The translations under genes were made by a program, and so were the position numbers. From the NCBI GenBank assembly GCA_017464805.1, contig JAFTYE010000008.1, positions 90,554 through 154,553 on the forward strand: a stretch of 64,000 bases of DNA, in the 5' to 3' direction. The DNA comes from Clostridia bacterium. GTDB taxonomy: Bacteria; Bacillota; Clostridia; Oscillospirales; CAG-272. The notes under the pieces were generated by a model. The model searched no databases. It had not been told where the DNA came from and was given only the letters and a program-made list of their open reading frames with translations. This document shows, in pieces, positions 12,229 to 30,100 of this stretch (its first letter is position 1; each line of letters opens with the position of its first letter).

Positions 12229-13254
12229 TTAGTTGATATAGACTTTTTCACCGGTTTTTGCAGACCGATAAACTGCATCAATAATCGCGACGGCGCGTTT
12301 TCCTTCGCTTGCGTCAATGAAGGGCCGTCTGTTCTCGGCAATCGCCTCGGCAAAGTCCGCAATCTGCGTCTTGTGCAGAGAATGATCCATGCCGTCAGGG
12401 CGACTGCCTGTGGCTTTTTTAGAGACACCGCAATCGAGATTGTATGCGGGATTCTTGAAATCCGAAAAGGCAATCGTGTCCTCGGTCAGCACCACCGACC
12501 CCTCCGTTCCCGAGATCTCCAATCGGCGTTGAAATCCGGGATAGATACAGGTGGTTGCCTGGATCACACCGAACGCACCGCTTTTGAATTCCAGAAGTGC
12601 GCTGACAATATCCTCGGTTTCAATCTTGTGGTACTTGGTATCGGCAATGGCCTGCACGGACACGACGGGGCCTGCGACATATTGCAACAGGTCCACGCCG
12701 TGAATACCCTGATTCATCAAGGCTCCGCCACCGTCCATTTTCAGCGTTCCCTTCCAGTTACTGGAGGTGTAGTAGTCCTCGGAGCGATAGTATTTCATGT
12801 AGATATCCGCCGACACGACCCGACCGAAATGCCCTTCCTCGACTGCCTTTTTCAAGGCGGTCACGGCGGGGGTGTAGCGAAGCTGGGAAATGACGGTCAC
12901 CTTGACGCCCATTTTGTCGGCCTCGGCGATGATCTCATCCGCCTCGGCGGCGGTGAAGGCCATCGGCTTTTCCAGAATGACATGCTTACCCGCGCGGATG
13001 CAGGCAAGAGCCATGGGATAATGCAGACCGCTTGGCAGGCAGATGGACACAATATCGATGCCCGCATCTCTCATCAACTCCTCATCCGAGGAATAGAGGC
13101 GGATGCCGTAGCTCTCGCAGAATTTTTCGCCACCGGGCTTGTAGGCATCAAATGCGCCGACAAGCGAGAGCGAGGGGATCTCCGAAATAGCCTTGGCGTG
13201 GTAGTTCGCGACCATGCCACAGCCGAGGATCCCGACGGAAAGCGTTTTTGCCAT
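12229..13254 (-). CDS. Gfo/Idh/MocA family oxidoreductase
   Basis: This 341-residue protein has the Rossmann glycine motif VGILGCGMVANYHAKA, the VSICLPSGLHYPMA segment, the EKP motif (VILEKPMA) near residue 95 and the C-terminal MDGGGALMNQGIHGVDLL segment, in which the His is a likely catalytic residue. These are standard features of NAD(P)-dependent sugar dehydrogenases. Its start codon overlaps the stop of the upstream enolase-superfamily gene by one base (TAATG), showing translational coupling. It differs from the downstream paralogue (11196-12209), so the two probably act on different intermediates of one pathway. Confidence 0.92.
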   Translation of the reverse strand: MAKTLSVGILGCGMVANYHAKAISEIPSLSLVGAFDAYKPGGEKFCESYGIRLYSSDEELMRDAGIDIVSICLPSGLHYPMALACIRAGKHVILEKPMAFTAAEADEIIAEADKMGVKVTVISQLRYTPAVTALKKAVEEGHFGRVVSADIYMKYYRSEDYYTSSNWKGTLKMDGGGALMNQGIHGVDLLQYVAGPVVSVQAIADTKYHKIETEDIVSALLEFKSGAFGVIQATTCIYPGFQRRLEISGTEGSVVLTEDTIAFSDFKNPAYNLDCGVSKKATGSRPDGMDHSLHKTQIADFAEAIAENRRPFIDASEGKRAVAIIDAVYRSAKTGEKVYIN

Positions 13255-14537
13255 TATGTCTTCCCCTCCCCGCGCGAAAGCGCATCGTAGTAGCCGCCCG
13301 TCTGCTTGATGGCGGCGGAGGTGGTGTAGAAATCCTCGCCCAGATCAAACACGCCGTCACGGTCGGTGATGTAGGTGGCGGGATAGGCAGGATGGTAACC
13401 CTTCATGGCTTCCCAGTTGACATAGTTCTGTCCGCCGTTGGACTCGACCACACCGACCTTCATGCCCGCAAGGCGGGTGAGACGGGAGGCGACGCACTGG
13501 TTCCAGCTGACCATCACAGGGTTGACCGTGAGGTCGGCGCAGAAGGTGACCATGCCGTGCGCGGCGGCAAAGGTGTGCATACGAGAGGACATGGTCAAAC
13601 CCTTGGCGATGGGCTTCAAGGTAAGGGCCTTGTAGCCGAGCGCGAAGCGTTCCTCAAGAGCCTCCATGTCATGCACGCTCTCGTCTGCGGCAACGCAGAC
13701 GGGAAGGTCGCCGACGAATACGTGATTCTCCTCCGCAAAGGGTTCCTCGAGCAGGATGATGCGATCCAGGAAGCCGTTTTCGCGGCAAAAGTCGAGAAGA
13801 TCGAGCAGGCGCTCCTTGCTGTCGTAGCGACCGTTCGCATCAAGGTAGTACAGAATTTTGCCGTCCTCGGTGTGAGAGGTTTGGATATCCTTAAGAGCGG
13901 TGTGAATTTCAAGCAAGCGGTTCTTATCCCACGCAAGCATCTTGGCGTAATCGCCATCCTTGTCGGGGTCAGAGCCGATCTTGATCTTAAACAGGGGGGT
14001 GTTGTTCTCCGCCATATTCACCACATCGGACACAAGCGCGCCGTAGGTGATGAGCGGGATGTTGGCCAGCTTGGTCTGACGCTCACCGTCAAAGGTGCAG
14101 ATATCATCAAAGCCTGTCTTTCCCTCTTCTTTGAGGTAAAGCTGCCAGGCGGCAAAGTCCACGGGGACAAGGGCGTTGAGGACAAAGGTCTTGCTGACCC
14201 CCTCCAGTTTCGTGACCCTTTTGGCATAGGCGTATGCTTCGGGGAAAATGGCGTCAAGAAGCTCACCGGGGTTGGCGAATTCACGGCCCACGATGAGATC
14301 GAGGGCGTATTTCGTCACCGAGAACATCATCTCGTTGCTGTCGGCTTCCCCGTAGGTCTTGAACACATTGGCATCCGACCACAGAACGCTCTGCACGCCA
14401 AGGCCGACACCCACGTTATTTTTGGTTTCGATACGCGCGGCGATCTGCCACAGGCAGGTCAGAGCGTTCCCCTTGAAACCGAAGGCGGTCTTTAGAGGCT
14501 CCTTTTCCACGCCGCAGGATGTGCTGACAATGTACAT
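13254..14537 (-). CDS. Enolase-superfamily dehydratase/racemase (mandelate racemase/MLE-like)
   Basis: Enolase-superfamily enzymes abstract the proton alpha to a carboxylate; in this context dehydration of a sugar acid is the likely reaction. The 427-residue protein has a KIK motif (LFKIKIG) typical of MLE-subgroup catalytic lysines, and metal ligands Asp in YYLDANGRY, Glu in ILLEEPF and Asp-Glu in VAADESVHD, then Lys in ALTLKPIAKG as the opposite-face base. It lies between Gfo/Idh-type genes in one operon, which supports a sugar-acid route. The exact substrate is unknown and the sequence is not close to a member I can name. Confidence 0.8.
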   Translation of the reverse strand: MYIVSTSCGVEKEPLKTAFGFKGNALTCLWQIAARIETKNNVGVGLGVQSVLWSDANVFKTYGEADSNEMMFSVTKYALDLIVGREFANPGELLDAIFPEAYAYAKRVTKLEGVSKTFVLNALVPVDFAAWQLYLKEEGKTGFDDICTFDGERQTKLANIPLITYGALVSDVVNMAENNTPLFKIKIGSDPDKDGDYAKMLAWDKNRLLEIHTALKDIQTSHTEDGKILYYLDANGRYDSKERLLDLLDFCRENGFLDRIILLEEPFAEENHVFVGDLPVCVAADESVHDMEALEERFALGYKALTLKPIAKGLTMSSRMHTFAAAHGMVTFCADLTVNPVMVSWNQCVASRLTRLAGMKVGVVESNGGQNYVNWEAMKGYHPAYPATYITDRDGVFDLGEDFYTTSAAIKQTGGYYDALSRGEGKT

Positions 14538-14563
14538 AGGTTATCCTTTCGTGGCAGGTATGA

Positions 14564-15514
14564 TCAATCCTGCAAATAGATGGGAGCGGACATCGGACCA
14601 ACGCGATAACCGGCCTCGAAGGCATCGCCGTCAAAGCGAACGTTCGCCAGGTTTTCATCGTTGATGAGCACCTCACCGCATCCCTCGTCCTTGGACTTCT
14701 TGCCGGCAAGCAGGATCTTGACAGCATCGGTGATCTCCTTCATGGAGGCGATGATGCTGTCCTTACCCTCCATGACATTGGCGATTTGGTCGAGCAGGGC
14801 GCCGTATAGGTTATCGTTATTGATGGTGAAGGAGTAGTCCTTCGTGGTGGTCATGATGGCGGCGTGGAAGAGCATAAAACGGGGCTTTACGCAGTGATAG
14901 GAGGCGGTGGCGCCATTTGCAAAGCGGACAAAATAGTTTTCGTAGCTCTGGCCATCAATCTCGGTCGCACCGACGAAGGTGGTGCTGACAGGCTCGGACT
15001 GTGCAATACCGCAAATGCCCTCCACGGCGTGAATGGCGTAGTTGAACTCGTCAACACCGACGGTGATGGACACATGCAGGAGCTTGCCCTTCTCCTCCGC
15101 GGGCATGTTCACAAACTCGACAACCTCGGGGCAGTAGCGGACGGAAGAGGAACCGAGGATCTTCGCACCTTTTGCTTGCAGCTCCATCAGCTTCTTGCAG
15201 TCGGCAAGGCAACCGACGATGGGCTTGTCGATAAACACGGGCTTGCCCGCATTGATGAAGGCCATAGCATAGTCCAGGTGCTTATCCCAGTTGCAGCCCT
15301 GCACAAAGCCGATATCCGCGTACTCGACCAACTCGTCGAGGGTAGAGCAGATCTTGTCCAGCTTTGCATTCTTTGCAAACGCCTCTACTTCTTCTTTACC
15401 GCGGAAGCCCTCGTTATACACAGCGGCATAGCGCATACGGTTCCCTTTTGCGAGAACACGAGAAAACATTTTCGGATGCGAAACATCGATATTCACCAAA
15501 CCAATTTTAACCAT
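14564..15514 (-). CDS. Gfo/Idh/MocA-like oxidoreductase with an altered nucleotide-binding loop
   Basis: The 316-residue protein has the Gfo/Idh plan, including FIDKPIVG at the EKP position and an internal domain with FNYAIHAVEG. The usual GxGxxG is missing: the first strand reads VKIGLVNIDVSHPKMF, so NAD(P) binding may be changed or lost. I start at ATG 15514 because GGGAG lies 8 bases upstream; a GTG at 15523 would lie directly against that site. It is the first gene of the four-gene operon ending at 11196. It may be a dehydrogenase with unusual cofactor geometry or a non-redox lyase/isomerase built on that fold. Confidence 0.75.
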   Translation of the reverse strand: MVKIGLVNIDVSHPKMFSRVLAKGNRMRYAAVYNEGFRGKEEVEAFAKNAKLDKICSTLDELVEYADIGFVQGCNWDKHLDYAMAFINAGKPVFIDKPIVGCLADCKKLMELQAKGAKILGSSSVRYCPEVVEFVNMPAEEKGKLLHVSITVGVDEFNYAIHAVEGICGIAQSEPVSTTFVGATEIDGQSYENYFVRFANGATASYHCVKPRFMLFHAAIMTTTKDYSFTINNDNLYGALLDQIANVMEGKDSIIASMKEITDAVKILLAGKKSKDEGCGEVLINDENLANVRFDGDAFEAGYRVGPMSAPIYLQD

Positions 15515-15833
15515 AACATTCACTCCCTGAATTTATATTGATGGAATTTGGCAACCGAGCCGAAAAAAGGCTGTTCCGATTGCAGTTCCATTGTAGCATA
15601 GTTTGGCAAAAAATGCTTTACACGAAATTGTTTTTTTCAGATTGCCAAAAACAGGCCGTGTTTTTCCTTGTTTGCATCTCCTTTCGAAAACGAAAGCGTA
15701 GCAAAAAAGCAGAATCCTTCAGTTTTTTCAAAAAACGGTTGGCTTTCGGACTTCCTCGTCTTTTTACACTTAATTGTGATTGGGCCCTTTTTCCTCACGT
15801 GTATTTTTTCGTGATTGTTCCTTTTTCGTCATC
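15515..15833. other. Intergenic region with three TTTGGCAA half-sites
   Basis: No gene is visible. TTTGGCAA occurs at 15547-15554 and 15602-15609, and its inverse TTGCCAAA at 15642-15649. A TACAAT-like -10 box on the minus strand lies close to the middle copies. The arrangement suggests an operator region for the sugar operon starting at 15514. The rest is T-rich with nothing recognisable. Confidence 0.4.
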
Positions 15834-15873: not shown

Positions 15874-16689
15874 TCAGGAAAGCAGGGCACGGTCGCTTGC
15901 GAATTCCTCGCCCGACACGCGGGAGAACATAGCAAGCAGAGTCTCGACGGTGAGGTTTTTCTTTTCCTCGCCTGCGATATCCAAAATGACCTTGCCATCC
16001 TTGAGCATGATCAGGCGATTGCCGTGCTCGATGGCATCACGCATGTTGTGCGTGACCATCAGGGTGGTAAGCCCAGCCTCGGCGACGATCTCTTCGGTGA
16101 TCTCCAGCACCTTGGCGGCGGTCTTGGGGTCAAGAGCCGCGGTATGCTCGTCGAGGAGTAGCATCTTGGGCTGCACAAGAGTCGCCATCAGCAGGGTCAG
16201 TGCCTGACGCTGACCCCCCGAGAGCAGGCCGACCTTGGAGCTCATGCGCTCCTCAAGGCCCAGCCCCAGGCGGGCAAGTTCCTTGGCGTAGAGCTCTCGT
16301 TCCTTGGCGGAAATTTCCCAGCGCAGGCCGTGCCGCTTATCGCGGCGGTAGGCAAGCGAGAGATTTTCGGCGATCTCCATATTCGGGGCGGTACCCATCA
16401 TCGGATCCTGAAACACGCGGCCGAAGTAACGCGCGCGGCGATGCTCGGGCAGGAACGTGATGTCCTTGCCGTCCAGAATGATCTCGCCCTCGTCTAGTGG
16501 GAAAACGCCGGTCAAGGCATTCATGAGCGTGCTTTTACCCGCGCCGTTACCACCGATGACGGTGATAAAATCACCGCGGTTGATGGTCAAGGATAGGTTG
16601 TCCAGCGCGCGCTTTTCATTGATCGTACCACCGTGAAAGATCTTGGTGATACCGCGGATCTCCAGCATGGGGGTGTTCTTTTCTTCCAT
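15874..16689 (-). CDS. ABC importer ATP-binding protein (TrpZ-like)
   Basis: This 271-residue ATPase would power uptake by the neighbouring permease and binding protein. It has Walker A GGNGAGKST near residue 37, signature LLSGGQRQAL, Walker B MLLLDEHTAALD (with His in place of the usual Pro after Glu, as is common in this subfamily) and the switch His in VTHNM. I start it at ATG 16689 after a GGGGGG-type ribosome site, one base after the permease stop. It is the last gene of the three-gene operon behind the T-box at 18710-18957. Confidence 0.93.
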   Translation of the reverse strand: MEEKNTPMLEIRGITKIFHGGTINEKRALDNLSLTINRGDFITVIGGNGAGKSTLMNALTGVFPLDEGEIILDGKDITFLPEHRRARYFGRVFQDPMMGTAPNMEIAENLSLAYRRDKRHGLRWEISAKERELYAKELARLGLGLEERMSSKVGLLSGGQRQALTLLMATLVQPKMLLLDEHTAALDPKTAAKVLEITEEIVAEAGLTTLMVTHNMRDAIEHGNRLIMLKDGKVILDIAGEEKKNLTVETLLAMFSRVSGEEFASDRALLS

Positions 16690-16690
16690 A

Positions 16691-17611
16691 TCACGCACCC
16701 CCCTTCTTGTGGCTACCACGGTGCTTGATGGCTTTTTTTGCGCTGTCCAAAATGGCGGAAAGGCCGAGTGCCACCGTGATCACAAGCGCGGTGAGCAGCT
16801 TGAGATTGTCGGGAGACATGATGTTGGCATCGATGATGACCGTCACGATCACGCGGTAGATCACCGCGCCGATCGCCACACCGAACAGACGCAGCACGAA
16901 TCCGCGGGCACGCTTGAAGATGGTTTCGCCGATAATGATGGAGGCAAGCGCGATGACGATCGCGCCGACACCCATGGTAGAGTTTGCGGAGGATTGATAC
17001 TGACAGAGCATGCTGCCGCCCACGGCCACCAGGCCATTGGAGAGCGCAAGCCCAAGGATCTTGGCATTGTCGGTATTGACCCCCTGTGCACGGCACATTT
17101 TTTCATTATCACCCGTCGCACGGACGGTACAGCCGAGCTCGGTCCCGAGGAACCAGTACAGAGCGTATACCACCAAAATGACCAGCAGAACGCCGATTAT
17201 CAGGGCGGAATAGCGGCGGCCGATCTCGAGCAGGCCGTTGACCTGATCGTACAGCGTGTTATGTTTGCCGATATTAATGTTCGGGCTCTGCATGATCATC
17301 AGATTCACGGAAAAGAGGGCAGTCATGGTCAGAATGCCCGCAAGGATCGGCGGGATCTTCAGCTTGGTGTGCAAAAGACCCGTCACGATACCGACAATAC
17401 AACCCGCGAAGAAAGCACAGATCACCGAGAGAGCAGGGGGAACACCTCCCGCGATGAGCACGCCGGAAACCGCCGCGCCGCAGGTGAAGCAGCCCTCACA
17501 GGACAGATCGGCAAAATCCAGAAGGCGGAAGGAAATGAATACCCCCAACGCCACAAAGGCCCAGATCAATCCCTGGCAAGCACCCGTAAGAAGCGTATCG
17601 AAAGACAACAT
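16691..17611 (-). CDS. ABC importer permease (TrpY-like, ABC_trans of branched-chain permease type)
   Basis: The 306-residue protein has about eight to nine hydrophobic helices and the motif ATGDNEKMCRAQGVN, the EAA-like cytoplasmic loop of this permease class, followed by GLALSNGLVAVGG. It resembles permeases paired with PF04392-type binding proteins (TrpXYZ-like systems). It sits between the binding protein and ATPase genes, with 21 bases to the former. Function as the membrane channel of an amino-acid importer is inferred from the operon and its T-box. Confidence 0.92.
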   Translation of the reverse strand: MLSFDTLLTGACQGLIWAFVALGVFISFRLLDFADLSCEGCFTCGAAVSGVLIAGGVPPALSVICAFFAGCIVGIVTGLLHTKLKIPPILAGILTMTALFSVNLMIMQSPNINIGKHNTLYDQVNGLLEIGRRYSALIIGVLLVILVVYALYWFLGTELGCTVRATGDNEKMCRAQGVNTDNAKILGLALSNGLVAVGGSMLCQYQSSANSTMGVGAIVIALASIIIGETIFKRARGFVLRLFGVAIGAVIYRVIVTVIIDANIMSPDNLKLLTALVITVALGLSAILDSAKKAIKHRGSHKKGGA

Positions 17612-17632: not shown

Positions 17633-18667
17633 TTAGCCCTTGTTGACCGTGTGGATGTTGGCGGCACCGTTTGCCAGAGCATTGTCGGTGGGAACATAAA
17701 CGAGGTCAACGCCTGCATTCTTCAAGGCAACGAAGGCGGATTCGAGGTCGTTGATATCGCTGATGCCGCGAACCTCGTAGGTGTAGCCGAGATCCTCGCA
17801 GGCGGCCTTACCGAGGTCTACCTGGAAGATAGAGTTGGTCTCGCCGGAGGAATAGAGGAAGCCGATCTTCACATCGTCCTTGCCGAGCAGCTCACCTGCC
17901 AGCTCGATCTGCTTGGCAACGGGGTTGATGTCCGACACGCCGGAGACATTGGCACCGGGGGCATCCATGCTGGCAACCAGGCCCTCACCGACAGGGTTGG
18001 TAACGGCGCAGAAGAGGACGGGGATCTTGTTCTCGCGGGTTGCGTTGGCGGCAGCCACGGAGGAGGAGGTAGCGATGGTGTAAATAAGGTCAACGTTCTG
18101 GTTGACGAAGGTCTCGGCGATGGTGATGTTGTTGGAATCCTCACCGCTTGCGTTGCGGTCAAGAACCTGAACAGTCTTGCCTGCCGCCTTCATACGGACG
18201 GAAAGCTGATCCTGGAAGCCTTTGTTGGACTGGTCGAGAGCCACGTGCTGTACCAGCTGCAGGATGCCGACAGTGAAGTCTGCACCGCTCTCCACGATGG
18301 CGTCGGTACGGGTCACCTGGGGGGCGGCACCACCCTCTGCACGGTCAAGGATGGCTTGCGGGATAGTAAAGCCGATCTCCTCGGCCAGCTCGGGGTTTAC
18401 GTACAGGGAGGGATTGGGGTCGGTCTGTACGGGCATGGTGGAAACGTTTGCGCCGTCCAGCAGGATATCGGCGGCCATATCGCCTGCCTTGACACCCAGG
18501 CTGTAGTAGTCAACGCCGTAGGTAGCGACGCCGCACTGCTCGGTCATGCCGGTCTCGCCGCACACAACGGGAACAGGGCCGGTGCTGCCGCCGCAGGCAG
18601 TCATGGTGACGGGGACAGCGAGGCACACCAGTGCCAATACGATGGAGAGAATTTTCTTTGCGTTCAT
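17633..18667 (-). CDS. ABC importer substrate-binding lipoprotein, circularly permuted TrpX-like
   Basis: A signal sequence (residues 1-24) ends at Cys25 in VTMTACGG, so this is a lipoprotein. In ordinary TrpX-like (PF04392) proteins the mature chain begins with a TVGILQLVQH strand and ends with a section beginning IPVVCGE. Here the order is reversed: residues 31-112 (PVPVVCGETGMTEQCGVATY, MAADILLDG, STMPVQ) are the usual C-terminal part. A linker of about 18 residues (113-130) follows, then FTVGILQLVQH at 131 begins the usual N-terminal part, which runs to YVPTDNALANGAANIHTVNKG and stops. The cut and the missing end match exactly, so nothing seems lost. Total length, 344, is normal. It is the first gene behind the T-box. 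Family assignment is secure; the substrate is probably an aromatic amino acid. Confidence 0.9.
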   Translation of the reverse strand: MNAKKILSIVLALVCLAVPVTMTACGGSTGPVPVVCGETGMTEQCGVATYGVDYYSLGVKAGDMAADILLDGANVSTMPVQTDPNPSLYVNPELAEEIGFTIPQAILDRAEGGAAPQVTRTDAIVESGADFTVGILQLVQHVALDQSNKGFQDQLSVRMKAAGKTVQVLDRNASGEDSNNITIAETFVNQNVDLIYTIATSSSVAAANATRENKIPVLFCAVTNPVGEGLVASMDAPGANVSGVSDINPVAKQIELAGELLGKDDVKIGFLYSSGETNSIFQVDLGKAACEDLGYTYEVRGISDINDLESAFVALKNAGVDLVYVPTDNALANGAANIHTVNKG

Positions 18668-18709: not shown

Positions 18710-18744
18710 AAAAAAATGCCCCCATACCCAACAGGTACAGAGAC
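18710..18744 (-). terminator. Intrinsic terminator of the T-box leader
   Basis: On the minus strand an 11-bp stem (GTCTCTGTACC / GGTATGGGGGC, with G-U pairs) and a 5-base loop is followed by A and 7 T. Its left arm overlaps bases that also pair with the T-box sequence to form the antiterminator. Confidence 0.8.
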
Positions 18745-18957
18745 GAGCAAGCCGTGATACCACTCTGCTTCACCGTTTTTTTGCAAAAACGGCCTCACGA
18801 ACGCCAATCAGCGTCCCCGCGATATAACGGTCGCACCCGGCAAGACCTACTTTGGTTCAGCCCGCAGCTCCCAAAACGAATTTCACCCGACGCCACCTCT
18901 GCCTTGCACCGACCGGCATTTCTCTGCACGCGCTTTTCGGGGTACTCCCTTTCTGAT
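18710..18957 (-). promoter_or_regulatory. T-box leader RNA controlling the ABC importer operon
   Basis: T-box leaders sense uncharged tRNA and prevent termination. On the minus strand the T-box AGAGTGGTATCACGG lies at 18752-18766. CAGAG can pair with the downstream CTCTG and ACG with CGT, around a TGGTATC bulge, forming an antiterminator that competes with the terminator at 18710-18744. Stem I has the loop-E AGTA (in GGGAGTACCCCGA) facing GAA, an AGAGA element and a CGGTGCAAGGC apical region. Stem III (CCGTTTTTGC/AAAAACGG) is at about 18772-18793. The triplet after GAAA, at 18878-18880, is UUC, suggesting tRNA-Phe; an in-register alternative is AUU. The codon assignment is the weakest part. 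Confidence 0.85.
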
Positions 18958-18973
18958 CATCGCCTATGCTAAA

Positions 18974-19178: not shown

Positions 19179-20207
19179 ATGAACACAGAAAACGGCACGA
19201 TCGCCCTTCCCCCCTCGGCAGATGGTAATTCTCTTCGCCGCGCGGCTTGGTGGTCCTACTTCCGCGTGGGTCTGGGACTATTTCTCTTCTCCCTGATCCC
19301 GCAGGTACTGGCCATCGCGCTTTCCTTCGTTTTACCACTCGTGGCACCCGAGGTCATTGCTTTTCCGCTTTTTACGTGGATCTTACAGGTAGTGCTGATG
19401 TACGGTATCGCCTTTCCGGTGGCGTATGTTGTGATTGGCCGTCCCTCTCTTCCCTTTCCGAATGAGGGGAGCCATCCGCCCTTTTTGCTTTTCTTTACCG
19501 TGTTCTGCCTGCTCTCCACGACGGCGCGCCTCGGATCGCTGATCGGCGAGACGCTGATGATGGCTGTGGAGGCGATTAGTGGCATCCCGCAGAGCAATCC
19601 CGTGACCGACATGCTGAGCGACACGCCGTTGTGGGTCATTTTCGTTGTCGTGGTGGTACTCGGGCCTGTGGTGGAGGAGCTTCTTTTCCGCCATGCGGTG
19701 ATGCGGCGGTTACTTCCCTTCGGAGAGAAGAACGCCATTTTCTTCTCCGCTGTTGCCTTCGGTCTGATGCACGGCAATTTCTATCAGCTCTTTTACACGG
19801 TCGGCATGGGTGTGCTGATCGGTTACTTATACGCGCGCACGCGCATGGTGATTTATCCCATCCTGTTGCACATGCTATACAATTTCATGGGATCGATTCT
19901 GCCGCTTACCTTCACCTCCTCTCTCGAGGATCTGCTCACGCAGATAGAGAGCGGAACGCTGACCCCCATGCTCCTGTTGCAAAATGCCCTGCCCTTGTGC
20001 GGCATGCTGCTGTATGTGGTGCTGGTGCTTGGGCTTTCGGTGACGGGTGTGATTCTTTTGCCAGTTTATTACAAGCGCATTCATTTCGCGCCCTGCCCTC
20101 ACCCCCTTCGCACGTCCGAGCACGTGCGCGCCTGCTTTGCGAACGTGGGCGTTATTCTGTTCATTTTGATGGCCTGCTTTGAGCTGGTATTATCTCTTAT
20201 CCCTTAA
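19179..20207 (+). CDS. CPBP family intramembrane metalloprotease (CAAX protease-like)
   Basis: The 342-residue multi-pass membrane protein carries the family motifs [14 protein letters not shown] (EExxxR, near residue 165), [10 protein letters not shown] (FxxxH) near 190 and a third motif HMLYNFMG near 230. These form the Glu/His active site of intramembrane Abi/CAAX-type proteases. Roles in this family include peptide processing and self-immunity, but no bacteriocin genes are nearby, so the substrate is unknown. An AAGGAGG site precedes ATG 19179. cysE follows 22 bases after its stop. Confidence 0.9.
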
Positions 20208-20229
20208 TCCAAACGAAAGGAATCCCGCT

Positions 20230-21051
20230 ATGGAATACCCATCCACCAAGGAGGCTCTTTTGCGTGCGGCAAACGTGCTGGCACAGAAAAATGCAACCTC
20301 CGCAAGCCCGATACGCCCCGCCTTCGGCGCTCGTATCCTACGCTTCTTGAATCTGACACGCGCAGCCATGTACCCAACGGTCTTTGCAGGGGATGCCGGC
20401 GTGTGCGAGGCACAGGCCCTGGCCGCGGCAGCGGAGGAGCTTGCCTCCCTGCTTTCGGAAACGGTCGAGGACCACTCCCGGCACGAGGGCATCATGACGT
20501 GCTTTTTCGAGCGTCTGCCCATTGTGCGCGAGATACTGGACACCGATGTGCAGGCCGCCTACGAGGGCGACCCCGCCGCACGCTGCGCGGAGGAGATCAT
20601 GCTGGCCTATCCCGCCTTTGAGGCAATCAGCATATACCGCCTGGCCCACGAGCTGTACGTGTTGGGCGTTCCGCTTATTCCCCGCATGATGACCGAGCAC
20701 GCACACAAAAGCACGGGTGTGGATATCCACCCCGGGGCAACGATCGGACGCTATTTCTTCATTGACCACGCCACGGGGGTTGTTGTGGGGGAAACCTGCA
20801 CCATCGGCGATCACGTGAAGCTTTACCAAGGCGTGACTCTGGGTGCCAAGAGCTTTGAACTGGACGAAAACGGCAATCCCGTCAAGGGCATCAAACGGCA
20901 TCCCGACATCGGCAATCACGTTGTCATATACGCAAACGCCACCATCCTTGGAGGAAGCACCGTCATTGGCGATCATTCCACCATTGGCGGCAACGTCTGG
21001 CTTACCCATTCGGTCGAGCCGGGCAGCACCGTGTACTACCGCGGACAATAA
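20230..21051 (+). CDS. cysE: Serine O-acetyltransferase
   Basis: The enzyme acetylates L-serine with acetyl-CoA, the first step of cysteine synthesis. The 273-residue protein has an N-terminal helical domain and a C-terminal left-handed beta-helix of hexapeptide repeats, with [39 protein letters not shown] and [19 protein letters not shown]. The catalytic Asp/His motifs (DIHPG, FIDHATG) are present. I start it at ATG 20230 after a GAAAGG site; the longer frame overlaps the preceding gene. It may share the CPBP gene's transcript. No cysteine synthase gene is next to it. Confidence 0.95.
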
Positions 21052-21145
21052 ACCCGATCCCGGCCGTACAAAAGCACAGGGCATTGCTTTTGACGGCTTT
21101 GCGTTTTCAAAACGAAGATCCCAAGAAACAAAAAAGGAGCGCCCC

Positions 21146-24100
21146 ATGAAAAAGAGAATCTTATCCTTCATTCTTGCACTCTCTACGATCCTTCTGGCGA
21201 TCCCTGCCACGGTATTCCCCGTTATGGCGGCAGAATCGGCGGAATCTGACCCAATCGTTCTCTCCTCCACAATCTTTGCCCCCAATCAGGAGGGCACCTG
21301 GCCGATCTTTGACGAATACGACACGACGGCCATGAACACAAACGACTACGTAGGCGTGACCTACCGGGGCGGCTGGCAGATCGGCTACAAGCACGCGAGT
21401 GGAAACTCCTCGAACTTCACCCCATACGAAAAGCTGATCAAGGCGACAGGCAAGCTCGGTGAGGACGGAGAGATGATCCTGACCGCAGACACCGGCTACT
21501 GGACGCAGTGGGGCGGCCTGTACATAAAAAGTACCGCCAGTGCCAACCTGATGTTCTCCGGCGTGGATCTGGATGAGGCGACCGGCTACCTCGAGGCAAA
21601 CGTGGCTGCCAACGCGACCGTCCGCTACACCGCAAAGGAAACGGGTACGATCCGCGTGAAGGTAAACGAGCTGTACTTCTACTCGGACAGCGCGACCTAC
21701 TTTGCCGTGTACCACAACGGCGTGCGCGTACATGACCCGATCATGGCGGTCAATGCCAAAAGCCAGATCGTGAACGGCGCGTTCGTATCGAAGACCGCCT
21801 CCAACAACGCGTCCCTGTTCACGACCGTGACGCTGGATGTGCAGAAGGGCGACTCGATTGACTTTGTGTCCCACGCGAATCCCGATTTCAACGCCTCCAA
21901 TCTGGAGGAGCTCGGGCTGACCCAGTTTACAAAAACGGAGTACGTGAGATCCAAGCGCGGTCTTTCGGATTACGAGTTCCAGATCGATTACATTGCGGAA
22001 AAGACCTCCTACTCCACCCGTTTCTCTCCCGACGAAGAGAGCACCTTCCCCGTATTCGAGGGATACAGTGTCGCCGCGATGGAGAATGGTGATTCCGTAG
22101 GCGTCACCTATCCCGGCGCATGGCAGATCGGCTACCGCGATCCGAACGGCGAGACGGCGAACTTCACCGCCTACGACAAGCTCTACAAGGTGAACTCCTC
22201 GGGACAGATGATTCTGTCCGCGGGCTCGTCCTACTGGTCTGACTACGGCGGCGTATACATCACGGGCGTGCCTACCCTAATGTTCTCGGGCATGAGCTAC
22301 ACAGACGACTATACCTCCGTCACCTCGCACAATGCCGACCCCGTGATCCGCTACACGGCGGAATATACGGGTATGGCTCTTATTCGTCTTAACGAGCTGT
22401 ATTTTTATGCAAACAACGCGGCCTACTTGGAAATTCTGCACAACGGCGTACCGCTGACCGATCCATATCTGTCAACGGATGCGCAGTACCGCGTACAAGA
22501 CGGTGCCTACACCTCCGCGGGTGCGGCCAACAAGGGTGCGGATCTCGGCACGCTGGTACTTGAACTCACCGAGGGTGACACCATTGATTTCGTATCCCGT
22601 GCAAACGACGATTTCAATGCCTCGAACATCGAATCCCTCGGCTTGACCAAATTCGACGGAACCGAATACGATTACGCCAAGCGCGGCATGCTCGACTTTG
22701 ATTTCGAGATCGTTTATCGTTCCGAAAAGGATGGCGGCAAGGCGGAGAATTTTGCCGGCACGACAGACACCACGCTGCCCGAACCGCTGTTTGTATGGTA
22801 CGATGCAAGCGGTACCATGCTGGAGGACAGCGACATCCGTGAGGCAGCGGGAAATTTTCCCGACACCTCGGGAAGCACGGACATTGTTTTCTCCTCCCTC
22901 GTCTCTCTGTTTGACTGGCTTTATCGGACGGGCGGCAGCTATGCCGAGATCAATCCCACACTGATCGCAAACGGTACAATCTCCGAGACCGATAACTACG
23001 CAAACATTCTTGCAAAATACAAGACGTATCTCGCCTCCTTCACCTCACTCTCCTTCCCGAGTGGTTGGAAAGCAGGCGTAAGAGCCGGAAGCAGCTTCAC
23101 GGCATTTGACCGTCTGTGCTTCTTCTCGGACAGTAACCTCTTTGCCGTCGGGCAAGCGGGCGGCATCGCCTCTGCCTTGGTCGATTACAGCTATAACGGC
23201 AATCTCTTTGTGACGAGTGCACAGTTTACCGCTGCCCTCGATGCTTTCATTGCCAACGCCGCATCCATCACCCCGAGCGGCACGGCCGCCTCGGATCTGC
23301 GTCTCGAATATGACGGGATTCCCGAGGGGATGACGCTTCCGACGCAGGGCACCGACCCGCTGGCAGCGGTCGGCGCGGCCATGAAGCACCAAGGCGGCAA
23401 CCTCTTCCTATGTCCGAGCGCAAACGGCGGCATCGCCTCCTACGCTTATACGGTTCCGAGCGGCTATGATCGTCCGATCCTGTCGCTTACGGCCAATGCC
23501 GTCCGCTTTGACGGGGATGCAAGTGCCTTCCACTACGCCATCGCCGTGAACGGCGAGGTCGTGTGGCCCGTCGGTGCGACGATGTCCTCCGCGATGGCCG
23601 ATCACGATTCCATGACCGGTTGGCAGCTTTGCACCTCTGCAGAAGATCTCACAAGCACCCTCGCCTCTCTGCATTTCGAGGTAGAGAGCGGTGACGTTGT
23701 GGAGCTCTGCGTGGCGCGCGCCTATGAGGGCGGCGCGGAGATCGGAGACGTATGCGTAGGTATGGATCTGACCGCCACCACCGACAACTATCACGATGTA
23801 AATGTGCTGGATATCATCCGTTCGGGTAAGTACCTACACCGTGGTGTGTACGAATTCGGCAGCACCGTGACGCTTGCCGACCTCAATCTTCCCGACACCT
23901 TCGGTGCGAACGGTGTGTACATCAACAACACCTCCTTATCCGAGGAGCTACCCACCTCGCTCACCATGTATCGCAACTACCGCATCACCGACATGGTGCT
24001 GCAAAGCTCCGCTTCGGTTTCAATCACCTCTGCCTTTGCCGTAAATATTTACGTGCAGGCGCAGAGCAGTGCAACTGCCGCCGGTGTGGTGATCGATGGG

Positions 24101-27100
24101 GAGAAGGTTCCCGGCGTTTTGCAGGGCAATAACGTATACAAGTGCACCCTGCCCGTTGTTCCCAAGGATCTGCCTGCCATGGAGGTCTCCTACAAGGCAT
24201 ACCAGACTGTGGACGGCAAGGATACCGTCAACGCCGACCCGATCACCCTGTCCGCCTTTGACCTGCTTGCATTGTATGAGGCAAGCGAGGACGAAACGAC
24301 CGCCCTGCTCGCCAAGACCGTTCGTTATTACAGCCTGGCGGCACGCGACTACTTCATCAACCAGAAGGTAACACTTTCGGACGACGTGAAGAACGCCCTG
24401 CGCGGCAGAGCAGATGCTTCTGCGGTCGGTACGAATGACACCGCCATCCTGACAATGGTCGATGCGTATAAGGCAGGCACGGCTTATCAACCGTATCCCG
24501 ATGGCACAGACGTAAGTGCCTTTGATTTCAAATTCAACGGTATCACGCTGAAGCTGGATAACACCCTTGGCTTCCTCTTCCGTACCAAGCGCACGGACGA
24601 CACTCTGTTCGGCGAGCCCAGCCTGCGCCTGCGCGTCACGGATGCAAACGATAATGTTCGCTACTACGCGGATCCCGCTTCTCTCTTTGATGAGGAAGGC
24701 AAGGAAATGCTCTACTTCGTGGGCAACCTTCCCGCTGCGGAATACGCAAGCGAGTTCTATTTCACGCTGGTGGACGGCAACGGCACGGCACAAAGTGCTA
24801 CGCTGACCTATAGTGCCTACGCTTACATCGCCCGTACTTTCAACACCGCAAGCGGTGACGACAGTGCCCTGCATTATCTACTTCGCGGCATTTATGCACT
24901 CGGCGAGGCAACCTCCGCGTATCTGGAGGTACACTCCCTCAGTTATGACGCGAACTACACGTTTGACATCGGCGACGGCGGTGACGCCCTGGTTTCGAAC
25001 GACCCCGTTCTGAAGGAGGTCACCTACGATCCCTCCACCGCTACCGTTCTTTCCGCAAATGAATTCTTTAACACTGCACTGGAAAGTGGCAGCGTGTACA
25101 AGGTTAGCGACAACACCCTGACCCTGACCGACGCAGACGGCGGCAGCTACAACGCAAACGGTGCAATCCTCATCGCCTCGGGTGGTCTGATCATTGACGG
25201 CTGTCAGGACGTGACCGTATCCGACTTGGTCGTGGTCGGTCCCGTCATCATTCGCAATTCGAGCAACGTGATTCTGGAAAACTGCCAAATCCTGGCCCCC
25301 ACCCAAACGAGTGTATCGGTAGAGGCAACGGCAGAGAGCATCGTGCTCAACGCCTGCCGCATGATCGGTACGACCGCCGTGGCGAACGCCGCAGACGAGC
25401 TGACGGTCATGAACTCCTACCTCGGCTTCTCCGGGGACGGTGTGCGGGATACCGCATCGAACGGTACGACCGTACAGAACTGCCGCCTGGTCGGCACGGG
25501 CAGCGGCTCTGCCATCTACTCCACCGCTTCGGAATCCGCCTTCCGTTTTAATACCATCCTGCAGAAGCGCGTCACCTCCTCCGGCATCGTGCTGAAGGGA
25601 GACGGCAGTACGCTGAATGTGCTGGTTGCGCAGAACGTAATCTCCGGCACACGCAGCTCCATGAGCATCAGCGGCCTTCTCAACGCATCGGTCGTTCTGA
25701 ATAGTGCCGTAACGATCGAAGCGAGCGACAATAAGAATCTTTACCTCTGTGACAACGCCATCGGCGGCAGACTGGTGCTGACAAGCAACAACTACCTGCT
25801 GGCAGACGGCAACCGATTCCCCGACGACACGATGGATCACACCACCGTGTCCACGGATAACCAAAATACCAACGGCGACAGTCTTATGGACGTGAACGCC
25901 CGTGTGGATGTTGGTGCGAACGAGGATCTGCTCCCGCACGTGGATAAGGATCTGTTCCTCGGCATGGAGCGCAAGGAAGCAGTCAAGGATGTCACCTCCG
26001 CTACCAAGCTGGATGTCTACAAGTACATCACTACCAACTCGCTGGCAAGCAACAGCCACTACATCGTGGTAGCACCCGGTGCTTATCTGCTGAAGGACAG
26101 CGACTACAACAGCAAGAACGGTCTGGAGCTCACGACCTCCGGCAGCAACGGCGACCGCATTTACGCCTACGGTGTCTATGCGGAGCATGAATCCGGGCTC
26201 TATCGTCACATCACCCTCTCCGATGTAGAGGATGTGACCATCAAGGGACTTTCCATCGGCTACGCCGCACAGTCGGTCGGCCAGGTACAGATCCTGGAAA
26301 AGATCGACAACACGCACTTCCTGGCCGTAGCCCCTGCCGGCATGACGGCTGACCTTTTCGTGAATTCCACCAGCTCGACTTATCTGCACCGCACCGGCCG
26401 TGGCGAGGAATACATCTTCTGTGACCTCACAGGCTTCAGTGCTGTGGACAACGGTGACGGAACGGTCACCGTAACGGCATCGGCAACCTATGCAGAGCTA
26501 CTCTCCGTAGGTGACACCCTCACCTGCCGCGCTACCGGCAAACAGACCGTAACCACTTCCCGCTGCGCGGATATCCTGTACCAGGATATGACCGTGTTCG
26601 GCAACTCCGGCGGTCTTTGCTTCGTGGAAAGCGATAATACGGGCTACGTTACCTATCATCGCATTCTGGACACCAACCGCAACGGCAGAGTCATCGATCA
26701 GGCAACCTACGATGCCTACGAGGCTCTGGAAGCCGAGTATGGCGTGGACCTTGACATCCACGTGGATGAGGCAGGCCGCCTGCGCGGTGCCAAGCAGCTG
26801 GTTGGCTCGGTAGACGCTACCCACGTCATCTCCTGCGCTTACGGCTCGCAGATCATCTCCTGTATCTTCGAGAACATGTGCGACGATGGCACCAACCAGA
26901 AGTCCACCCACGGCCGTCTAGCTTCGGTGACCGACAACGGTGACGGCACGACCACCCTTGTATACAAGAGCTCCATTTCCATGCGCAACGTGGCCGCAAA
27001 CTACACCTCCACCGGCATCTGCCCCGACTTTGAGATCGGCGACCGCGTATTCATCTACACAGCGGCAGGGCAGCGTGTATGCGACACGCCGGCACTTTCC

Positions 27101-30100
27101 GCAACGGTAGAGATCGACTCCTACAAGTCTACGTATCGAGATGTGGAGCGCACCATCGTCAGAAAGTCCGTTACGGTCAAGACCGATGACGTGAACTTCG
27201 ACGCTCTTACGGGCTACGACCTCACCATCGACACGGCAGAGGATGAGCACAAGGTACTAATCGACAACCGCACAAGAACCTCGAACAGCTTCCGCATTGA
27301 GAACACCGTGATTGACGGAACCCGCTCGCGCGGACTTCTCATCAAGTCCTCGAACGGCGTGATCCGCAACTGTACGCTCCGCAACATTGCCAAGGTCGGT
27401 ATCGCGGTGCTGTACGAGATCTACTGGGGCGAATCGGGCGTTTCCGAGAACATTCTCATTGAGAACAACCTCTTCGATAACGTCAGCTATAATCCTCATT
27501 CCAAGGAAACGGATAACTACCAGCACTACCCGATCTACATCGCGGGTCTGGGCGGCGGCACGCTGCAGGAAGACTACCTGTTGTACACGGACATCACCGT
27601 GCGCGGCAACGTGATCCGAAACCGTCATTCCGACCACGCGGTATACGTTCGTGCAGCCAAGAACCTTGCGTTCTACAACAACGATTTCGGCAATGCTCTG
27701 ACCGAGACTGCCGACGACCCAAAGGCCACCTTCAAGTTCAACGGTGCCCTGAATGTCGAGCTTTCGGGCAACACCTACTCATCCTATCTGACCGACATTC
27801 AGCAGGCATATTACGGTCCTGCGTATGACAACATCTACGGTCTTGACGTTTCCAAATACCCCTATCACGATGAGAACAATAATCTGTTCATTCGTTATCA
27901 GGATACCTACACCTTCCCCGTGGCGATCGAGGCGATCGAGAACGCGGCAATCACCAGTAAGGTGACCGGAACCGATACGATGGATGCCAATCTTCTGGTT
28001 CTCCAAGAGGATGGCAAGTCCGTCTATGCGGATGGCTGCGGTACCGCAACCATCCGTCTGGTGGACGGCCGCACGGTGAACATCACGATCGATCCTTCCG
28101 ACATTTCCCTGTTCTTCGTAACGGGCCAGTCGAACGCATCGGCCGACCACAGCTTCACCAAAGAGAACAATCCCGAGGAATACGAAAAATATCACGACAC
28201 CTACGCGGACTACTTCATCCGTACCGCGCCTACCATGGCCTACTTCACCTGGACGGGTCAGTCCCTGTCCCTGACAGGCACCTACAATCCCGAAAACTCC
28301 GTCACCGACACCCTTGACTGGGACAACATGGGTAGCCAGGCCTTCGTTGACCCGAAGGTGTTCAGCATTCCCGTGGGCTCGACCACGTTCGGTAATGCCG
28401 GTTGGAGTGCCGCGCTGGCCCATGAATGGGTCGAGCAAACGGGTGAGCGCGTCTGGATCGTCAATGCCTCGCACGGCGGTCACGGCATTGCGGAATTCGC
28501 ACCCAGCGAGGATGGAACACCCGTGGATAACGACTACTATCAGGCGGTGGCGGTCTTCAACGAGGCTCTTGAAACGCTGTACGCTGAGGTCGATGCCGGC
28601 CACTTTACGCTCAACCACATGGCCTACTATTGGTTCCACGGCTGTGCAGACTATCAGCAGACCGAGGAATACTACACCGAGGGCTTTGCCAAGATGCACA
28701 CTGCCATGCAGGCGGATGTGGTGTACAACCACGCCGGCGTTGAGAAGAAGCTGGAATACTGCGGCATCATGGACATCCGCTCCAAGCATGATAGCTCGGG
28801 CAACTCCTACGCTGAGAAATATCTGACGGGACCGCGTCTGTCCCACTATCAGGCGGCAGGTGCCACGGACGGCGTGTTCGAAAACGTCTTTATCGCCTCC
28901 AACGTCACCCAGAGATGGCTTGGCGATGACCAGAATGTCGTGGACTACTTCCTGGAGACCTACGGCTCCGTGGAGAACTTCAAGGCGATCTTCGGCTACG
29001 ACATGCCTACCACCCGTTGGGAGCTACACCCGAACGTACACTACCTGATGATGGGTCACAACGAAATGGGTATGGACTGCGCCCGCAACACCCTGCGCAT
29101 CATCAACGCACTTGGCACGGGCAAGACCTACGTTCACGACTACGTGGATAACTCGTCCATCAGCATCACGCTGGTCGGCCGCGACGGTCACACCCCCATC
29201 ACCGATACCATCAAGCTGCAGGAGAACAACGGCAACACCTTACTCCTGCCTCTGATAACGCCCACCTGGCGCACCATGGACGGCGTTTCGCTGGTATCCG
29301 AAACCGCAGGCTTTACCTTCGTGGGCTATGAGCTGTACGCCACCGACACGACCAAGTCCCAGATCACCTTCTCGGTCTACGTAGGCGAAACGAATGTTCA
29401 AACCTACACCATGGCAATCGAGTGGGTATCTTCCTTCACGCAAAACGCACCGCTTTACACCTATGAGAACGGAAGCTACACACTGACCGGCATGCAGAGT
29501 CCCTGGTCGGTTGGTTATGTGAATCTTTCGGATAAGAGCTTTACGCCGTACAGTGCCATTTCCACGAGCGGTTGGATCGGCATCAACACGAACTCGCACA
29601 GTCAATACGGCTCCTTCACCGTTGGCTCCTGGAATGCCTCGATGCAGCCGAGCATGCTGGGCGCAGCCACGTTCTGTTACACGGCCACCAAGGATGGTAG
29701 CATTGCCATCTCTGCCGAGAAGTTCGATGCAGCGACCTATTCGGGCGGTGTGGGCACCTTCCTGGCTGTGATGGTCAACGGCAACATTGTCTGGCCGACG
29801 AGTGCCTCCTCCTATTCCCTACCCACCTCCACCGCCGACACGACCTGGCAGTATATGCCTGACTCCACCGACGGAACGGCAGAACTGAATGCCCTGTGGG
29901 CCGATGTTCGCCTAACGGTTAACAAAGATGATCTGGTACAATTCTGTCTGATCAGTGATACCGACCGTTCGATCACGGGCGGTGAGACCAAGACCAACTC
30001 CCAACCGATTCTGCACCCTGTCGTTACCTACGTGGAATCCTCTTCCTTCACGCACTTTACGCCCGTGGTCAACGAGGATAACACGGCCACGATGCGGGCA

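Follow-up and report, generated by a model that had tools for sequence, protein, structure and literature searches.

The gene at positions 17633..18667 on the reverse strand of the window (the whole 64,000-nucleotide stretch of DNA analysed here, from a gut bacterium of the Clostridia) encodes a lipoprotein of the PF04392/TrpX-like family of substrate-binding proteins (SBPs) in which the two parts of the ordinary chain have changed places, and comparison with family profiles and solved relatives supports the conclusion that the product is a true circular permutation. Very probably, it is the functional lipoprotein of an ABC importer for phenylalanine or tyrosine, whose chain presents the TrpX/PF04392 fold in a naturally permuted form.

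The exchanged order of parts

17633..18667 (-): circularly permuted PF04392/TrpX-like substrate-binding lipoprotein gene, 344 aa, coordinates including the stop
18578..18667 (-): signal peptide, lipobox (MTAC, Cys25) and short tether, residues 1-30, read by eye
18338..18577 (-): former C-terminal part, now first, residues ~31-110, from profile and structure-sequence matches
18278..18337 (-): linker between the old termini, residues ~111-130, from the alignment of 17 permuted proteins
17636..18277 (-): former N-terminal part, now last, residues ~131-344, from PF04392 and structure-sequence matches

After MTAC, the mature front of the lipoprotein begins with PVPVVCGETG... and runs up to about residue 110, and its back part extends from FTVGILQLVQH... 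through the C-terminal ...ANIHTVNKG. The former C-terminal piece comprises about 80 residues and the former N-terminal piece about 210, with a linker between them for which a preliminary description of this DNA gave 18 residues; the linker is indeed present, with a length closer to 20. As encoded, the protein matches PF04392 (ABC_sub_bind) at 178.9 bits, against a gathering score of 25.9, and the match is split into two stretches, the better of which aligns residues 133-339 with profile positions 2-204 of 293. In a copy with the order swapped (131-344, then 31-130), a single stretch covers profile positions 2-290 of 293 at 193.7 bits, so that a colinear, single-stretch match to the family, which the exchanged order denies to the encoded chain, is obtained only after reordering. 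Against the tryptophan TrpX equivalog model, NF041285, the encoded chain reaches 230.8 bits in two stretches and the reordered one 244.7 bits in one stretch, 32-322 of 322, both values lying under the model's cut-off of 390. All three solved relatives found (6hni, 3lft and 3lkv) match the encoded protein in two stretches, query residues 132-335 and 132-341 corresponding to the front of the 6hni and 3lft chains, respectively, and residues 29-103 and 29-110 to the back, and each of the three matches the order-swapped copy in one stretch. The single stretch recovered after reordering with PF04392, the three solved relatives and the TrpX model implies that every part is present once and that the order is exchanged.

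In two alignments to solved relatives, the reordered copy calls for one inserted residue near the join, and in canonical proteins, the matches of part-specific profiles for the N and C parts adjoin at the breakpoint with little or no gap; hence, little if anything appears to have been lost there. The preliminary description had posited this very arrangement, namely, the C-half ahead of the N-half, all parts present, and the same breakpoint on both sides, with the protein ending where its mature chain begins; the alignment with exchanged order to TrpX-like (PF04392) proteins that it proposed bears out all of these points. Among the 17 permuted proteins aligned, the lipobox Cys25 is invariant, as are V118, A123, G128 and D130 of the linker. 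By analogy with the known type I fold, the cut would fall in the C-lobe and would require an extra crossing between the lobes. The protein would form a two-lobed clamp as usual, its new ends exposed on the cut lobe and its old ends bridged by the linker.

Conservation and spread of the permuted order

The most mundane account of such a gene is scrambling during metagenome assembly or binning, to which the nature of the data lends some color: the genome of the window is in 17 contigs, and the titles of the 17 related records name 16 MAGs and one binned isolate. However, the same order with the same breakpoint recurs in 17 other loci of the genome-contig scan (62-69% identity in the best segment) and in 15 of the 295 sampled genomes of the family, own included, the gene bears the marks of purifying selection, and the operon carries on behind it, all of which renders an artefact scarcely conceivable. 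The preliminary description had itself named an assembly artefact as the outcome that could overturn the claim, and had advised a search for other permuted homologues; the protein is matched at 100% identity over residues 1-344 in its own genome (with no further match there at E<=0.001), and the search yielded both the 17 loci and the 15 family genomes, two sets that overlap, with several genomes common to both.

A profile was made from an alignment of 17 proteins, those of the window and of 16 of the 17 loci, with L047, where the reading frame is broken, omitted. The 15 family genomes, which span 10 genera, match this profile at 471-649 bits, and the other matches in the family sample reach at most 166.3 bits among the matches listed. 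Nearly the whole permuted profile is spanned in 14 of the 15; the exception, G309 (the genome of L047), matches over 6-297 with an internal stop. In samples of the order, class and phylum (394, 391 and 398 genomes, respectively; E<=1e-45), whole-profile matches were obtained in four genomes of the order sample, all from the family of the window, own included, and in the class and phylum samples, in the window's own genome only. Two more phylum-level matches begin near profile position 28. One of these, in G1242 (246 bits, 29-344), was considered as a distant permuted protein and rejected, given that it contains two internal stops and consists of two tandem canonical genes; the other, in G1289, is a fused tandem that is taken up further on. 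In the first search among relatives, the permuted form was found in none of the 35 other genomes of the window's genus and the canonical form in 11. These surveys are samples and a loose first look, from which permuted proteins too distant for the profile would escape.

Part-specific profiles give the order C to N in the permuted loci, N to C in all others, and N-C-N-C in the single fused tandem, L146. Homologues that begin with the C-part, which the preliminary description thought might expose the order as the ordinary one, do exist, but only as one clade among canonical proteins. In the eight pairs farthest from saturation, the dN/dS ratio is 0.09-0.24, with the two window pairs among these at 0.24 and most of the remaining window pairs near synonymous saturation; by this measure, the permuted gene is under purifying selection.

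The permuted gene of L047 (JAGHTD010000322.1) is divided between two reading frames. The record is titled Candidatus Colimorpha enterica (NCBI: Bacteroidales), whereas the genome is grouped in the family of the window, a clash that possibly reflects a mislabel or a binning error.

A probable single, old origin

Quick maximum-likelihood trees with SH-aLRT support were built first from 71 distinct proteins (20 permuted, 51 canonical) without the closer canonical relatives, and then from 126 proteins (20 permuted, 106 canonical) with these relatives added, after removal of 47 duplicates and of 4 frames that were incomplete or fused. In both trees, the 20 permuted proteins form one clade with a single change of state (SH-aLRT 100), and the clade is also single with each part taken alone (SH-aLRT 100 for the N part and 99 for the C part). 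Its stem measures 0.94 changes per column in the 71-protein tree, and no intermediate was seen within it. The identity of the window protein to other permuted proteins is 64-73% over the N part and 61-78% over the C part, and to any canonical protein compared, it is no more than 44.2% (N part) and 43.9% (C part). Given the single clade, the long stem and the low identity to canonical proteins, the simplest reading of these sequences is that the permuted order arose once, and that its origin is old.

A variant of this scenario would make the protein a hybrid, with the front and back parts derived from two different tandem paralogues of the family. Tandem copies need not be identical, and neighboring copies do occur in at least 7 of the 49 rank-selected loci; moreover, the two parts have different canonical rows as closest neighbors, namely L122, L128 and L113 in the N tree, and L121, L008 and L102 in the C tree. 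However, the C part provides only 82 columns and little resolution, so that differing neighbors on its tree prove nothing, and against a hybrid stand the about equal distances of both parts from canonical proteins and the recovery of one permuted clade with either part alone. We consider a hybrid origin improbable and tentatively favor descent of both parts from copies of one gene.

Tandem copies as a plausible route to the permutation

L146:2688-4712 (+): fused tandem of two TrpX-like binding domains, N-C-N-C, with a single signal-like N-terminus

The permuted gene would have been born once, when two tandem copies fused in frame and then lost the N-part of the first and the C-part of the second. 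Side-by-side canonical copies occur in at least 7 of the 49 loci L097-L145, which were fetched by rank and have short flanks, and in L146 (genome G1289), the two copies are joined in one genuine N-C-N-C reading frame, in which no second signal peptide between the copies is apparent by eye, and which is followed by permease and ATPase genes. The middle of the fused protein, from C1 to N2, matches the permuted profile as one piece at 185 bits, and loss of the outer halves from a protein of the L146 type would produce the permuted layout. Like the window protein, L146 has a C-part, a short linker and an N-part in succession; unlike it, L146 keeps both outer halves, which makes it a tandem rather than a permutation, and it belongs to a distant lineage, its genome being related to that of the window at the phylum level only. 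L146 illustrates the sort of intermediate that such a route would pass through and is not itself the ancestor. In the trees of N+C and of N, the canonical rows closest to the permuted clade include both copies of the tandem pairs L122 and L113; in the C-part tree, other rows are closest. The preliminary description had suggested tandem duplication with loss of the outer halves, and the tandem pairs along with the fused frame make this plausible, the route itself being a reconstruction.

Among the loci examined, L146 is the only fusion. Open frames of 681-708 aa next to canonical matches were examined as fused tandems and set aside: in L080 (the same place as L074) and in L077, the initial 390-400 residues come from read-through of upstream sequence and contain no second domain, and in L078 and L079, the copies sit in two separate reading frames.

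Operon, ligand positions and T-box leader

16691..17611 (-): permease, BPD_transp_2 (PF02653), Pfam match
15874..16719 (-): ATP-binding protein, ABC_tran (PF00005), Pfam match, exact start uncertain
18736..18969 (-): T-box leader (RF00230), specifier UUC (Phe) by eye, 81.0 bits, E 1e-16

The permuted gene is followed by genes for a permease and an ATPase in 16 of the 17 genome-contig loci, L047 ending too early, and also in two further permuted loci, L088 and L089; six longer loci were left out of the count as they represent the same places as loci already counted. On quick trees, the permuted SBPs and their permeases each form a single clade, and the ATPases of the permuted operons do not, with three changes (19 and 19 rows). 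The permease of the window (16691-17611, reverse strand) has a long end branch (1.1) yet falls inside the permuted-operon clade, with 51-59% identity to permuted-operon permeases and no more than 49.8% to canonical ones, among those listed.

According to the available portion of PMC9382623, the ligand residues of Streptococcus suis TrpX are T108, A127, T129, D152 and N233, with Q273 suggested to contribute to specificity. Under one offset, the first five correspond to identical residues in the window protein, T200, A221, T223, D246 and N329, and the position of Q273 is taken by Y54; the offset between the numbering of that report and that of 3lft was set by fit, this being the one of three offsets tried that fits. 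All six positions are invariant in the 17 permuted proteins. Since five of them fall in the back part and the sixth in the front part, the ligand site could work only if both parts fold together.

The T-box leader of the window matches all 219 positions of the model, yet its score is under the gathering score of 93, which is reached in seven relatives (L031, L033, L035, L037, L039, L043 and, with 93.7 bits, L046). At E<=0.001, a T-box is found just upstream of the permuted gene in 12 of the 17 permuted loci scanned (the window and L031-L046) and not found upstream of the gene in L034, L038, L040, L042 and L045; in L034, a T-box is located elsewhere in the locus, and in L038, a T-box-like motif is present. 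The specifier codon of a T-box comes after the GAA of the specifier loop, and with this rule, specifiers were read by eye as UUC (Phe) in five leaders (the window, L031, L033, L035 and L037) and as UAC (Tyr) in six (L032, L036, L039, L041, L043 and L044), L046 being unclear. An alternative register in the window would give AUU (Ile); UUC is preferred because L039 and L044 show the same spacing with UAC. In the canonical relatives L091 and L093 from the same genus, the specifier is also UAC. The antiterminator sequence UGGU is compatible with tRNAs whose discriminator base is A, in agreement with Phe and Tyr but not with Trp.

Together, the ligand positions and the T-box specifier point to import of aromatic amino acids, with phenylalanine as the probable ligand in the window genome and tyrosine in some relatives. 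The permuted SBP would bind Phe or Tyr and hand it to the neighboring permease/ATPase, and uncharged cognate tRNA would increase transcription of the operon. It could be argued instead that the permutation is real and that the import role was lost, with the protein now serving as a sensor or an adhesin; the case for transport is built from sequence, and a relative, CD0873 of Clostridioides difficile, is described as adhesive as well. Nevertheless, permease and ATPase genes follow in every permuted locus that is long enough, the ligand positions are invariant, and a leader specific for Phe or Tyr precedes most of the copies scanned, which makes such a change of function very unlikely compared to retention of a role in import.

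It is also possible, if doubtful, that this protein belongs to a founding permuted TrpX-like subfamily in which the transfer of the lipid anchor from the beginning of the N-lobe to the other lobe alters both the tethering of the clamp and its docking on the permease, the SBP and the permease having diverged together ever since. A shift of the tether caused by the permutation was considered and rejected: the first strand lies 6-15 residues (median 8, n=20) behind the lipobox Cys in permuted proteins versus 3-47 (median 9, n=98) in canonical ones, so that this rough motif count reveals no clear shift, the permuted range being the narrower one.

Relation to known binding proteins

Once reordered, the window protein matches the TrpX/PF04392 SBPs (3lft, 3lkv, 6hni; NF041285) as a member of the same family over the whole profile, and it shares with them the lipid anchor, the operon with a BPD_transp_2 permease and an ATPase, and the ligand positions. 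It differs in the exchange of the two parts and in the specifier, which is Phe or Tyr here rather than Trp. A T-box leader is common to this operon and to S. suis trpXYZ, for which such a leader is described in the available portion of PMC9382623.

The closest precedent comes from another family. TpMglB-2 (Tp0684) of Treponema pallidum is a natural circularly permuted type I SBP for which the authors propose the designation 'Type Ic'; as presented in the available portion of PMC4990184, it is lipid-anchored, assigned to an ABC importer and ligand-binding, with relatives in Gram-positive and gut bacteria. The window protein would likewise be a natural permutation of a lipid-anchored type I SBP that serves an ABC importer. 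However, TpMglB-2 belongs to a glucose/galactose family, and in it, the three strands that open the N-lobe have their counterparts near the C-terminus (PMC4990184, in the same portion), whereas here, the last ~80 residues have moved to the front. With both the family and the cut being different, the permutation reported here would be independent of the one in TpMglB-2.

The statement in the preliminary description that no permuted member of the family had been described stands for PF04392/TrpX, for which none was found in the open-access literature and for which the three solved relatives, each matching in two stretches, behave as chains of canonical order would; it needs to be amended for SBPs at large, given the example of TpMglB-2. 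OpuAC was considered as a second precedent of a rearranged SBP and dropped, the available portion of PMC2861598 containing no mention of permutation; nor is there mention of periplasmic or ABC proteins in the available portion of PMC12667903, a 2025 preprint on permutation-aware search. What is new is, then, a further SBP permutation, independent and conserved, for which a likely ligand can be named and to which another lineage of the family adds a fused tandem, the kind itself being known from TpMglB-2.

Circular permutation is in wide use for the construction of biosensors, and natural conserved permutations in ABC importers seem, to our knowledge, to be few. The clade described here offers 20 distinct sequences, canonical relatives in the same bacterial family and an inferred ligand class, and serves as a natural test of the extent to which a component of a transporter tolerates rewiring while being retained. 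In particular, the permuted clade allows direct study of what a relocated lipid anchor does, and the fused tandem, being of the expected intermediate kind in another lineage, opens the path from duplication to permutation to direct study. For genome annotation, the pertinent point is that colinear profile searches return permuted proteins as two partial matches.

Genomic neighborhood

Downstream of the transporter genes, positions 13254-15523 of the reverse strand encode an enolase-superfamily-like protein (PF13378, under the cut-off) and a GFO/IDH/MocA-like oxidoreductase; in the loci of the relatives, of some kilobases each, neither has a match at E<=1e-10. Farther upstream of the permuted gene, on the forward strand, an open frame of 3269 aa (20843-30652) has an export-like start inside it, near MKKRILSFILALSTILLAIPATVFPVMA, and its portion at 21146-30652 matches no Pfam family at E<=0.001. 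Closer to the permuted gene, upstream of it and likewise on the forward strand, are genes for a CAAX-protease-like (Rce1-like) membrane protein (19179-20207) and a hexapeptide-repeat transferase (20179-21051).
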